Of a stretch of 64,000 nt of DNA, positions 1,443-48,129 are shown piece by piece. The notes below the pieces were generated by a model. That model was not told the DNA's origin. It saw only the letters and a program-made list of their open reading frames with translations, and did no database searches. Each line of letters opens with the position of its first letter. Position 1 is the stretch's first letter. This DNA is from Thermococcus gorgonarius (GTDB lineage Archaea; Methanobacteriota_B; Thermococci; Thermococcales; Thermococcaceae): the NCBI RefSeq assembly GCF_002214385.1, contig NZ_CP014855.1, positions 992,001 through 1,056,000 on the forward strand. The letters are read 5' to 3'. Position numbers and translations under genes: made by a program.

Positions 1443-1607
1443 ATGAAGCGGGCTCAAACTGCCATAGAGTATCTCTTCATGCTCGCAGCTGCCCTGATTC
1501 TTGTGAGTATAGCAATGAAAACCGTTATTGACACAAGCAAACAGCTCGAGACTACGATTTCCAACTACACAAAGACCGTTAGAGAGAGGGTTCTGGAAAA
1601 CCTTTGA
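1443..1607 (+). CDS. Class III signal-peptide pilin-like protein
   Basis: A 54-residue protein starting MKRAQTAIEYLFMLAAALIL. The short basic leader, then Q-T-A-I-E-Y, then a hydrophobic helix, is the class III (Q-x-S/A-x-E) prepilin signature. Cleavage is expected just before Q5, leaving a surface pilin subunit. The remainder is a short polar helix, so this is a minimal pilin. Three in-frame ATGs occur (1437, 1440, 1443); AGGTGG at 1431-1436 fits the third. The downstream prepilin peptidase starts 17 nt after the stop, which suggests a dedicated processing pair. The role (adhesion, flagellum-related or other) cannot be told. Confidence 0.8.
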   Translation: MKRAQTAIEYLFMLAAALILVSIAMKTVIDTSKQLETTISNYTKTVRERVLENL

Positions 1608-1623
1608 TACTGGAGGGAAAGGA

Positions 1624-2847
1624 ATGGAGTGGTACAGTGTACTCATTATCCTAGTTGGATCACTGATGGGGATTTTTACTTCATACACTGACATCAAAAC
1701 TGGGTTCATATTCGATAATCATGTCTTCCCCACCCTTTTTCTTGTGGAAAAGGCAAAAGGACTGGAAAACGAAGAGGAAGAAGTCCAGCTTCCGAAATGG
1801 ATGGAAAAAATAATAATCCCTGCAACGGAGATCGGTTTTATAGTCTACCTCTACCTCGGGCTCATCAAAGGAGACTATCTGCTGGCAATTTCCGGAATCC
1901 TGGGCTTTTTCATCGGGCTGGTTCTTGGGCTGATTCTGTATTACACGGGAGCGTGGGCTTCTGGAGATGTCCTGATTTTGGCCGCATTCTCAGCTCTCCT
2001 GCCGTACCCACTAAGCTTAGCCAAGGTTGTTGCCCCTTACGAAACTTCTTACCCCCTCTATCCTATAGCAATCCTCTTTAACAGCGTACTCGCCGTTTTT
2101 CCGTTTCTTTTCGTCTACGCCCTGGGCGTGCTCCTGGTTAGAAAAAACACCAAGAGACTTAAGGACGTCTTCTCGGAGAAGGCATATCTCTCAGTTGAGG
2201 TAACCCTCTGGCTTTTGGTTGGAACTGCCCTGGCCGTCTTTCTAAATCAGATCGGCTTTTCAGTGGGGAGAATTTACCAGTACGTCCTCACGATTGTTCT
2301 TTTTGTGGTCTTTGGAAAGTACAGAAAAGCTGGAGACGTTGCGGGTCTTGTCTCTCTTGCCTACCTGGTTTACCTCGTAGGAACAGACGCCCTTTATGCA
2401 TTTGTCAAACTACTGGCTGTGATGTATTCATTCAAAGTATTCTTCTCCGTAGTTCGGGTTCTTAGGGAGGAAGCCCTTGTTGAGGAAGTTCCCGTTGAGG
2501 AGTTGAGGGAATGGGACATACTGGGGGAGACCATATACATTGAGAGGGATGTTGTTAAGAGGGACAGGAGAGGCTTCTTTGAGGTTCTCAGAGATGCCAT
2601 AAGAACCGGAAGCATCAAATCCCAGAACGTCTATAGAGGCGAGATAATAGCATCCCCAACGGCAGAAGGACTCAAGAAGGAGCAGATAGAGAAGCTGAAG
2701 GAACTCGTGAGGGAAGGAAAACTGGACAACAGATTCCTGAGGAAGAAAGCGATGCCCTTCGCACCAAGCATCTTTCTGGGGTTCCTAATCGCGGCCCTCT
2801 GGGGGGACGTGTTCTGGTGGCTTGTCCTAAAGACGGCGGGACTGTAG
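1624..2847 (+). CDS. Archaeal prepilin peptidase, A24 family
   Basis: About 407 residues with several membrane segments. Two aspartates expected for the aspartic prepilin peptidase lie in YTDIKTGFIFD near residue 22 and in the GAWASGDVLIL segment near residue 115 (the G-x-G-D-type loop, here A-S-G-D). A soluble insert rich in charge (about residues 285-375) precedes a last C-terminal membrane helix, longer than minimal EppA/FlaK enzymes. The start is ATG 1624, which follows GGAGGGAAAGGA; an upstream in-frame extension would overlap the pilin gene. It likely cleaves the class III leader of the adjacent pilin. Confidence 0.85.
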   Translation: MEWYSVLIILVGSLMGIFTSYTDIKTGFIFDNHVFPTLFLVEKAKGLENEEEEVQLPKWMEKIIIPATEIGFIVYLYLGLIKGDYLLAISGILGFFIGLVLGLILYYTGAWASGDVLILAAFSALLPYPLSLAKVVAPYETSYPLYPIAILFNSVLAVFPFLFVYALGVLLVRKNTKRLKDVFSEKAYLSVEVTLWLLVGTALAVFLNQIGFSVGRIYQYVLTIVLFVVFGKYRKAGDVAGLVSLAYLVYLVGTDALYAFVKLLAVMYSFKVFFSVVRVLREEALVEEVPVEELREWDILGETIYIERDVVKRDRRGFFEVLRDAIRTGSIKSQNVYRGEIIASPTAEGLKKEQIEKLKELVREGKLDNRFLRKKAMPFAPSIFLGFLIAALWGDVFWWLVLKTAGL

Positions 2848-2848
2848 C

Positions 2849-2908
2849 GGGGGTCAGTGAAGGGCGTGGTCATCAACTTTCAGCAAAGCAAAAGCTCCTC
2901 ATCCCCCC
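2849..2908 (-). ncRNA. C/D box guide sRNA
   Basis: Read on the minus strand, all four boxes are in order: C box GGGATGA (2899-2905; consensus RTGATGA with one change), D' box CTGA (2880-2883), C' box TTGATGA (2870-2876) and D box CTGA (2854-2857). Spacings are 15 nt (C to D'), 3 nt (D' to C') and 12 nt (C' to D), normal for archaeal methylation guides. A G run before C and a C run after D can form the terminal stem. The guides are GGAGCTTTTGCTTTG (D') and CCACGCCCTTCA (D). It begins 3 nt after the ACA of the H/ACA RNA, so both probably come from one transcript. Targets were not verified. Confidence 0.87.
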
Positions 2909-2968
2909 TGTGGGTTCGGCAGGAAGCCCCGCTTCATGTTTCTGCGGGGAGGGCGGGAGGCCGAACCC
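2909..2968 (-). ncRNA. H/ACA box guide sRNA (single hairpin)
   Basis: On the minus strand a 9-bp lower stem (GGGTTCGGC at 2960-2968 with GCCGAACCC at 2912-2920) is followed directly by ACA at 2909-2911. The pocket has a left strand of 10 nt (2950-2959) and a right strand of 6 nt (2921-2926), and the upper stem is 6 bp (CCCCGC with GCGGGG). The loop AGAAACATGAA carries GA and TGA, as in the L7Ae-binding K-loop. All are hallmarks of archaeal pseudouridylation guides. A TATA-like element at 2989-2996 puts the start site at about 2968, exactly at the stem. Confidence 0.83.
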
Positions 2969-2988
2969 AGGAGGGTTTGGAGGAACCC

Positions 2989-2996
2989 ATTAAAAA
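2989..2996 (-). promoter_or_regulatory. Predicted TATA element of the guide-RNA pair
   Basis: Minus-strand TTTTTAAT lies about 25 nt before position 2968, where the H/ACA stem begins. It lies just beyond the stop codon of the HAD gene, so the guide RNAs seem to have their own promoter in addition to possible readthrough. Confidence 0.5.
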
Positions 2997-2998
2997 CC

Positions 2999-3625
2999 TC
3001 ACTCCTCTATCAGGCCCCTGATTATTTCGATCACTTCGTACAGGTTCTCAACAACATGATCTCCCTCAACCCCTTCGTGAGGGTTTATTGCTATACTAAC
3101 ATCTGCCTCTGCAAACATTGAAAGATCGTTGTACCCATCTCCGACAGCCACGGTTAGTTCAGGAGAGAGTTCTTTCTTGAGGGCCCTCAGGATCGACCCC
3201 TTTCCAACAAAATCCACCCTGGGGATAACTTTTCCTGTTATGACGCCGTTCTCGTCGAAAACTAGCTCGTTGGCGAACACATAATCTGCCCCAAGATCGT
3301 CCGCGATTTTTCTGGCCAGACACATAAGACCACTGCTCAAGATGGCCATTTTAAAATTGTTCTCCCGCAGGAAATCAAAAAGTTCATACGCCCCTTCCAT
3401 GAGCTCCACTGATTCAACCCACTCGAGGATCTCTTCCTTTGTGTGTCCCTTCCAGAGGGATGCATCCAGTTCAGCCCAAGTGGCGTAGTCTATCCTACCC
3501 TCAAAGAACATTTCGGCGTATTCCTTTCCCTTTTCCCAAGTTCCGAACTTTTTGTGAAGTTCAACCCAGCCGGAAACTGATTTTACCAGCGTTCCCTCGA
3601 GGTCAAAAGCGGCCAGCCTTACCAT
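2999..3625 (-). CDS. HAD-family phosphatase, phosphoserine phosphatase-like
   Basis: A 208-residue HAD hydrolase. Motif I is AAFDLEGTL (the second acidic residue is Glu, as in some subfamily IB members), motif II ILSSG, and motif III the lysine in VDFVGKGS followed by VGDGYNDLSMF (motif IV aspartates). The layout matches SerB-like phosphatases and suggests serine biosynthesis, but HAD substrates are easily misjudged. The start is ATG 3625, preceded on its strand by GGTGGGTG; an in-frame upstream extension has no ribosome site. It has no functional neighbours. Confidence 0.8.
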   Translation of the reverse strand: MVRLAAFDLEGTLVKSVSGWVELHKKFGTWEKGKEYAEMFFEGRIDYATWAELDASLWKGHTKEEILEWVESVELMEGAYELFDFLRENNFKMAILSSGLMCLARKIADDLGADYVFANELVFDENGVITGKVIPRVDFVGKGSILRALKKELSPELTVAVGDGYNDLSMFAEADVSIAINPHEGVEGDHVVENLYEVIEIIRGLIEE

Positions 3626-3725
3626 AACACCCACCACCAACCAGATTAAATGCATCAATAAAAATGTTGCTGGAGAGGCAACTTTAAATACAAAAATTTC
3701 AGAATTAAAAGTCAGGGTGAATTAG

Positions 3726-6905: not shown

Positions 6906-6987
6906 TAATTCCTCCCTCTGAACTATTATCTTCATAGGTATTTAAAAGTCTTGTGATCGAGCCTTATGCCCCAAAGAGGACGCAAAG

Positions 6988-7150
6988 TGTGGGCCGGGCA
7001 CAGAGGCCCGCGTTCATTTGCTCGCGCGGGTGGATGCTCCCGGCCCTGTGGGCTCGGCGTGAGCACACTCCGCTCATTGAACCCGACAACCTTGCGGAGG
7101 CGGGAAAACCGAGCCCGTGCGAGGAGACTGTATTGTCCCCTCGCTGTCGG
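6988..7150 (-). ncRNA. H/ACA guide sRNA with two hairpins
   Basis: On the minus strand two H/ACA units stand in tandem. Unit 1: lower stem GGGCTCGG (from 7109-7116) with CCGAGCCC (7050-7057), ACA at 7047-7049, upper stem CTCCGC/GCGGAG and loop ending ATGA. Unit 2 starts in the next base: GGGCCGGG (7039-7046) with CCCGGCCC (6991-6998), ACA at 6988-6990, upper stem CCCGCG/CGCGGG, and loop CGAGCAAATGAA with GA and TGA as in a K-loop. A further 26-nt leader hairpin lies at 7119-7144. Pocket strands are AGCATCCA and CCTCTGTG for unit 2. The stretch holds no plausible protein. Confidence 0.8.
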
Positions 7151-7172
7151 CATGAATAATAGGAAAACCGAG

Positions 7173-46863: not shown

Positions 46864-46924
46864 GGCCTCAGGAGTGGTGGCCCTCAGCACTTCTCAGTGC
46901 CGGGCCAACCGCTCATCATCGGCC
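46864..46924 (-). ncRNA. C/D box guide sRNA
   Basis: Minus strand: C box ATGATGA (46913-46919), D' box CTGA (46894-46897), C' box GTGCTGA (46884-46890), D box CTGA (46868-46871). Spacings are 15, 3 and 12 nt, identical to the C/D RNA at 2.9 kb. GGCC on both sides forms the terminal stem. Guides are GCGGTTGGCCCGGCA (D') and GGGCCACCACTC (D). It lies just after the alanine aminotransferase stop on the same strand, so it may be cut from that mRNA. Targets not determined. Confidence 0.88.
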
Positions 46925-46932
46925 TTTCCCTT

Positions 46933-48129
46933 TTAGCTAAGCCTCTTTCTCATGAACTCCTCGAACCTGCTCATTGCCTCCTCAAGTATCTCCACCGGCG
47001 GCAGGAAGACTATCCTGAAGTGCCATTCACCGGCCCTTCCAAACCCTGACCCGTGGACGAAGAGAACATGGGCCTCGTGGAGAACATCAAGAACGAACTC
47101 CTTATCGCTCTTCCACTTCGAGCGCTCCTCTATCCTCGGGAAGATGTAGAATGCTCCCTGGGGCTTCTGAGTGCTTACTCCGGGAATTTCTGTCAGGCGT
47201 TTGTAGATGTAGTCCCTCCTCTCACGGAGCTTTTTCATGTACTCTTCGAGGTAATCCATCGGGCCGGTCAGGCCGGCTATGGCAGCGAACTGAGCCGGTG
47301 TGCTCGGGCATATTCTTATACGCATGAGCTTGTCAATAGCTTCTCTGACCTCAGAGAGTTTGTCCTCGGGGTCAACGTAGTAGAAGTAGCCCAAACGCCA
47401 GCCGGTTGCGAAATAAACCTTTGAGAGACCGTTCATAACTATTACCGGGACGTCCTTAGTGAGCGAGCCGGGGGAAACATGCTTTCCTTCATAGGTCATG
47501 AGATCGTATATCTCGTCGCTTATAACGGGTAAATCGTACTCTCCTGCAAGATCAAGGATGGCTTTTACGGTTTTCTTTTCGTAGAGTGCACCCGTCGGGT
47601 TGTTGGGGTTTATCACAGCTATAGCCTTCGTCCTCTCGTTTATTCTCTTCCTCATATCGTCTATATCGGGCTGCCAGCCGTTCTCCTCTATTGTATCATA
47701 CTCGTTGGGGATTCCCCCATAAAACTTAACCAAGCCAGTATACGGTGGATAGCTCGGACTCGGTACGAGGATGTTGTCACCGGGGTCAAGTAAACCACCG
47801 AATATGAGCTGAAGTGCTTCGGTAACGGCCGTGGTAACGCGGACATCGTCAGGAGTTATGTCAACGCCGTTCTTCCTTTTCTCGCGCTGGACGACGGCTT
47901 CCCTCATCTCCGGAAGGCCCTCGCTCGGGCCATAGTAGTTGTGTCCTTCCTTTATGGCGCGACAATAGGCTTCCTGCATGTGCTCCGGTGGCTGGAAGTC
48001 GTACTTCCCGGGGTCGCCTATGTTGAGACGGATGACCTTTATCCCCTTCTTTTCGAGCTCCCTGGCGGGAAGAACAACATCCCTTATGGCGTATTCAACG
48101 CCCATGGCCCTCTCAGACGGACGAATCAT
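46933..48129 (-). CDS. Alanine aminotransferase (class I/II, PLP-dependent)
   Basis: 398 residues. PLP lysine in NGLSKVYFATGWRLGY (about 243), INPNNPTGALY, SDEIYDLMTYEG and the arginine in HFRIVFLPP. The sequence follows remembered Pyrococcus alanine aminotransferase, which links glutamate, pyruvate and alanine as a way to dispose of nitrogen and reductant in sugar fermentation. ATG 48129 follows GGTGGTGATTGAA. The C/D RNA lies in its 3' flank. Confidence 0.93.
   Translation of the reverse strand: MIRPSERAMGVEYAIRDVVLPARELEKKGIKVIRLNIGDPGKYDFQPPEHMQEAYCRAIKEGHNYYGPSEGLPEMREAVVQREKRKNGVDITPDDVRVTTAVTEALQLIFGGLLDPGDNILVPSPSYPPYTGLVKFYGGIPNEYDTIEENGWQPDIDDMRKRINERTKAIAVINPNNPTGALYEKKTVKAILDLAGEYDLPVISDEIYDLMTYEGKHVSPGSLTKDVPVIVMNGLSKVYFATGWRLGYFYYVDPEDKLSEVREAIDKLMRIRICPSTPAQFAAIAGLTGPMDYLEEYMKKLRERRDYIYKRLTEIPGVSTQKPQGAFYIFPRIEERSKWKSDKEFVLDVLHEAHVLFVHGSGFGRAGEWHFRIVFLPPVEILEEAMSRFEEFMRKRLS

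Follow-up and report, generated by a model that had tools for sequence, protein, structure and literature searches.

The minus-strand locus at positions 2849–2968 of the window, the stretch of 64,000 nucleotides of Thermococcus gorgonarius DNA analysed in our study, was found to be orthologous to Pab21-sR9 (Rfam snoR9), a non-coding RNA gene that contains two guides. The gene is very probably transcribed from a single promoter as one transcript, which is then cleaved into separate H/ACA and C/D guides. The covariance search proposed in the sequence-only reading of this DNA gave a match to the Rfam model RF00065 (snoR9) on minus-strand positions 2839–2968, with a covariance-model score of 109.6 bits, above the curated cut-off of 90 (E = 1.1e-24), and the alignment ran end to end over model positions 1–128 of 128. 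An H/ACA hairpin with an ACA box followed by a four-box C/D RNA had been read on the minus strand, and this was confirmed by RF00065, by patterns and by the alignment of the relatives. The fused arrangement had also been held to be notable; it is no novelty, as Rfam curates it as a family and publications describe it (PMC2241582, PMC4652768). The snoR9/sR9 RNA is reported to hold both H/ACA and C/D guide types (PMC2241582), and in P. abyssi the C/D transcript, annotated as one transcript by RNA-seq, carries the H/ACA guide Pab21 at its 5' end (PMC4652768). Our own searches of the P. abyssi genome gave exactly the published tandem intervals (PMC4652768); this genome (G004) and that of T. kodakarensis (G023) were equated by agreement with published coordinates. 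Elsewhere in the phylum, the families searched gave no RF00065 match at the cut-off applied, the signal of M. jannaschii being below it. The parts of the gene, located by pattern and by alignment to 45 relatives, and the neighbouring genes are as follows.

2999–3658, minus strand: SerB-like HAD phosphatase gene, upstream on the same strand (open reading frame, syntenic; named from sequence character)
2990–2996, minus strand: TTTTTAA, a TATA-like element at -28 to -22 relative to the hairpin, inside the 30-base gap behind the serB stop codon
2909–2968, minus strand: H/ACA guide half (Pab21 ortholog), a single hairpin with ACA box (RF00065; own model R1, 75.2 bits; covariation)
2960–2968, minus strand: lower stem P1, 5' strand, pairing with 2912–2920 (9 pairs, 7 with two-sided changes)
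2950–2959, minus strand: pocket, 5' guide side, complementary to 16S GGCGGG
2927–2949, minus strand: upper stem P2 (2944–2949 with 2927–2932) and putative K-loop (2933–2943), with covariation at the top pair
2921–2926, minus strand: pocket, 3' guide side CUUCCU, of which UUCCU is complementary to 16S AGGAA
2912–2920, minus strand: lower stem P1, 3' strand (covariation)
2909–2911, minus strand: ACA box (found in 45 of the 46 aligned loci; ACG in the other)
2849–2908, minus strand: box C/D guide half (sR9), with terminal stem 2904–2908/2849–2853 (RF00065; own model R2, 84.0 bits)
2896–2902, minus strand: C box AUGAGGA (pattern and alignment)
2884–2895, minus strand: D' guide GCUUUUGCUUUG, predicted target 23S G207 (nearly invariant; 10 of 11 positions pair)
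2880–2883, minus strand: D' box CUGA (pattern)
2870–2876, minus strand: C' box UUGAUGA (pattern)
2858–2869, minus strand: D guide CCACGCCCUUCA, predicted target 23S G55 (complementarity; CACGCCCUUC nearly invariant)
2854–2857, minus strand: D box CUGA (pattern)
1528–2847, plus strand: convergent prepilin-peptidase-like membrane protein gene (open reading frame, syntenic; name provisional, start codon set mechanically)

The H/ACA half contained the hairpin, pocket, K-loop (as read from the sequence) and properly spaced ACA box of its class. The lower stem was 9 bp, the pocket 10 + 6 nt and the upper stem 6 bp, and the distance from the upper stem to the ACA box was 15 nt; in archaeal H/ACA RNAs this distance is 14–16 nt (PMC4652768). 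The K-loop at 2943–2933 may contain tandem G.A pairs. The UUCC of the pocket 3' side was nearly invariant among the relatives, and the top pair of P2 was found to covary (CG in 26 and GC in 20 of the 46 aligned loci). The folding energy of the hairpin was -28.5 kcal/mol (z = -3.6), and none of the 200 shuffled sequences was equally stable. The whole 117-nt piece folded alone gave an uninformative and unremarkable z of -1.0; it is the hairpin and the comparison of relatives that provide the support.

The C/D half starts right behind the ACA box with the terminal stem, where GGGGG (2908–2904) pairs with CCCCC (2853–2849), followed by the C, D', C' and D boxes at the normal spacing of the class; the stem was paired in 97.6% of the cells of the alignment. 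The C box departs from RUGAUGA at one position, at which the relatives carry A, C, G or U. A spacing of 3 nt between the two RNAs had been claimed; the C/D RNA does follow directly, but the distance from the ACA box to the C box is 6 nt as aligned with the relatives. In several lineages (L053, L054, L057, L058, L061–L063, L095, and L096) the D'-C' loop of sR9 carried a GC-rich hairpin insert of ~11–19 nt, owing to which the Rfam match was broken off past the D' box.

The alignment in relatives, also proposed in the earlier reading, showed the tandem to be intact in ~62 Thermococcaceae loci and its stems to covary strongly. In the 46 aligned loci the named structure was paired in 97.4% of the cells and 10 of the 19 pairs contained two-sided changes. 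The covariation score was not reached by any of 500 shuffles, slid versions all scored lower, and RNAalifold recovered the lower stem, upper stem and terminal stem from the alignment alone. A chance origin of the tandem structure is excluded. The decay or loss of the H/ACA half in several lineages (see below) could suggest that the C/D RNA alone is functional here and that the hairpin is a decaying relic. This is scarcely credible for the present locus, where the nine pairs of the lower stem, the upper stem, the 16S-facing bases of the pocket and the ACA box are all intact, where the changes relative to the relatives are compensated (for example CC/GG to UU/AA in the lower stem) and where the H/ACA model scored 75.2 bits.

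The targets of the two guides, numbered from the Rfam-bounded start of each rRNA of this genome, are predicted to be one 16S uridine and two 23S riboses. For the H/ACA pocket, the predicted target is U870 within 16S AGGAA-UU-GGCGGGGG, where an unpaired UU is flanked by complementarity. The site is one of the few best pocket matches, and other, weaker matches exist; the published Pab21 substrate contains a U immediately after the target U, like the UU here. The D guide is complementary to 23S nucleotides 51–61 and the D' guide to nucleotides 203–213, with G55 and G207, respectively, as the predicted methylated positions. Both guides contain one mismatch with the 23S rRNA, at the base adjoining the box, which counts against the explanation favoured here; in Pyrococcus the box-adjacent position of the D guide is paired. 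In the rRNA of the family, sought by 16S fragment search, the 16S target site was identical in all 60 operons and the two 23S sites were found in 58 and 59 of the 60, one operon being truncated.

A single TATA element had been noted ahead of the tandem, and the TATA-like TTTTTAA at 2996–2990 agrees with it; its position suggests that it may act as the promoter. When the 46 loci were anchored at the start of the hairpin, an A/T peak was found at -27 to -22 and AA at -10/-9. The stop codon of serB lies 30 bases ahead of the RNA, and that of the convergent peptidase-like gene abuts its 3' end. Within the gap between these two genes, the cassette shared the strand of the peptidase gene in 66 loci and that of serB in 10 loci including the window, in one of which serB alone was detected; in Pyrococcus it was found elsewhere, without serB and the peptidase gene alongside. 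The TATA-like element, ~25 nt upstream, stayed together with the tandem in all three gene settings. Among the loci compared (window 2849–2996 and loci L010–L083, L095, L096), 10 loci from several genus groups thus show an in-place inversion of the whole cassette between the same two convergent genes.

With the RNA only 30 bases behind serB on the same strand, and with the C/D half occurring alone elsewhere, usually with a TATA-like element of its own, the two RNAs could be separate genes that are neighbours by accident, or both could be cut from the serB mRNA. Either is highly unlikely. The ACA box and the C box are only 3–7 nt apart across the loci, so a second promoter would need to sit in the GC-rich hairpin, and no A/T-rich promoter fits there upstream of the C box. 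The tandem kept its TATA-like element where the cassette is on the opposite strand, following the peptidase gene, and at its different site in Pyrococcus, and the T. kodakarensis start site listed in PMC9014305 is ahead of the H/ACA half.

In T. kodakarensis, the ortholog (sR01, TKOcandSno19) was found at 47779–47908 of the minus strand, with the ACA box at 47851–47849. PMC9014305 lists a start site at 47910, taken from Jager et al., and a circular RNA sR01 of 62 nt from 47786 to 47847, with 395 circular reads against 2,167 aligned reads and 7 in the knockout of the RNA ligase TK1545; the junctions of the circles were grouped within 5 nt and the sR01 circle was unconfirmed by RT-PCR. On these coordinates, transcription in T. 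kodakarensis begins 2 nt before the hairpin, and the circle begins 2 nt past the ACA box and spans the C to D boxes without the H/ACA hairpin. When the published start and circle ends are joined with the position of the H/ACA half, an inference of ours, they predict a cleavage ~1 base after the ACA box. Given that the circle was seen in reads and RT-PCR was negative, a linear RNA of C/D size or circles at a low level are possible.

The earlier reading had left two outcomes side by side, one precursor that yields both guides or a composite RNP. In the latter, the halves would stay joined as one particle with pseudouridine synthase and methyltransferase modules, like the eukaryotic composite scaRNAs. 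The halves do abut almost without a linker, their order is fixed in every intact locus, and the account of P. abyssi describes one transcript with no mention of cleavage (PMC4652768), which also counts against the cleavage model. The composite RNP is nevertheless unlikely: the junctions of the circular reads of T. kodakarensis connect the two ends of the C/D half only (PMC9014305), the predicted targets of the two halves are on different rRNAs, and the C/D half was found out of the tandem context in ~23 genomes. A start before the H/ACA half together with a circle of the C/D half only makes a precursor that is later separated the likelier outcome, and the single precursor giving separate guides is the part of the earlier proposal that we favour.

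In the single-precursor reading, transcription from one promoter would start no more than a few bases from the H/ACA hairpin; the resulting primary transcript would extend through the hairpin and the C/D RNA and be cleaved at about the junction between the ACA box and the C/D part. The H/ACA part would assemble with Cbf5, Nop10, Gar1, and L7Ae and convert one 16S uridine to pseudouridine, and the C/D part would assemble with L7Ae, Nop5 and fibrillarin, direct the 2'-O-methylation of two 23S riboses and be partly circularised. By analogy with the relatives, the same events, including the cleavage step, the assembly of proteins and the modifications, probably occur in T. gorgonarius. For P. abyssi Pab21, the binding to Cbf5-Nop10-Gar1-L7Ae and the formation of pseudouridine have been shown in vitro (PMC3726423), and the H/ACA half may be expected to bind the same proteins and make pseudouridine here.

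The phylum was searched with separate models of the H/ACA (R1) and C/D (R2) halves. In 85 genomes the C/D half was present at its locus; of these, ~62 had an intact H/ACA half and in ~23 it was missing or decayed. The latter were all 12 genomes with the RNA in genus group g4, two in g2, one in g6, six in g1 (G041, G054, G056, G064, G066, and G067) and two in g5 (G091 and G092). In the rRNA-operon tree of 59 genomes, well-supported branches forced at least four changes between presence and absence of the H/ACA half, and the sister pairs G086/G092, G029/G041, and G059/G054 differed in it. The C/D half persists after loss of the H/ACA half, which occurred independently in several cases; the state of g4 and g2 may represent either a loss or an original absence. 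Several genomes are drafts, so single losses could be due to assembly error; the differences of the sister pairs rest on read sequence at the locus. H/ACA halves at different stages of decay were found upstream of an intact C/D half in L060, L064, L066, L075, and L078, with the 3' strand of the upper stem lost in L060 and the ACA box absent in L066. The complete Thermococcus-group genome G034 (1.52 Mb, one contig) contained no clear match to either half, the best C/D model match having E = 5e-4.

No stand-alone copy of the H/ACA half was found with the H/ACA model over the phylum at the sensitivity used. Two of the weak off-locus matches were re-tested with Rfam and were HgcF and HgcE; the other inspected matches were rejected as their pockets differ. 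The window itself contained HgcF (Pab35), a three-hairpin H/ACA RNA, at 6977–7151 of the minus strand (152 bits), with no adjoining C/D RNA in the window, and the C/D RNA sR47 (RF01131) at 46866–46923 of the minus strand (49.8 bits). HgcF was rejected as a second tandem in P. abyssi, the nearby C/D RNA being on the opposite strand. A second C/D RNA (RF00095) was found in P. abyssi (L007, 1685–1742, plus strand), divergent and ~58 bases upstream of the snoR9 tandem.

The tandem, the TATA-like element and the boxes are all common to T. gorgonarius and T. kodakarensis; sR01 is listed as a C/D RNA in PMC9014305, the available part of which does not mention the upstream H/ACA half. Compared with Rfam snoR9 and Pab21-sR9 of Pyrococcus, the gene is the same, with H/ACA followed by C/D, the same guides and a match to the full model; it differs from Pyrococcus in its setting, as in T. 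gorgonarius the cassette separates serB from the peptidase gene and shares the strand of serB, and in most Thermococcus it is on the peptidase strand. In the eukaryotic scaRNA U85, the H/ACA part is nested inside the C/D part and is aimed at an snRNA. U85 acts as one Cajal-body RNA, whereas the units here are side by side, rRNA-directed and probably separated; common to both is one RNA with C/D and H/ACA guide domains (PMC4041459). Dicistronic transcripts are known in archaea, in which a C/D RNA is made together with a second stable RNA and occupies the 3' portion (PMC7994747), and Tko-sR44 is made with tRNA-Arg (PMC4247193). In contrast to such tRNA-C/D and C/D-cluster transcripts, the partner here is an H/ACA guide and not a tRNA or a second C/D RNA.

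An arrangement that looked striking is thereby settled as a documented, conserved gene family, and the additions of our study to it, the repeated loss of the H/ACA half and the joining of the published ends, are modest. It is quite improbable that an uncleaved fraction forms a composite RNP, with 16S pseudouridylation and 23S methylation coupled through adjacent L7Ae molecules; if true, it would be an archaeal analogue of the composite scaRNAs, dismantled in some lineages via the loss of the H/ACA half. The sister pairs that differ in the H/ACA half provide a natural experiment: their 16S target is unchanged, which makes the value of the pseudouridine directly testable.
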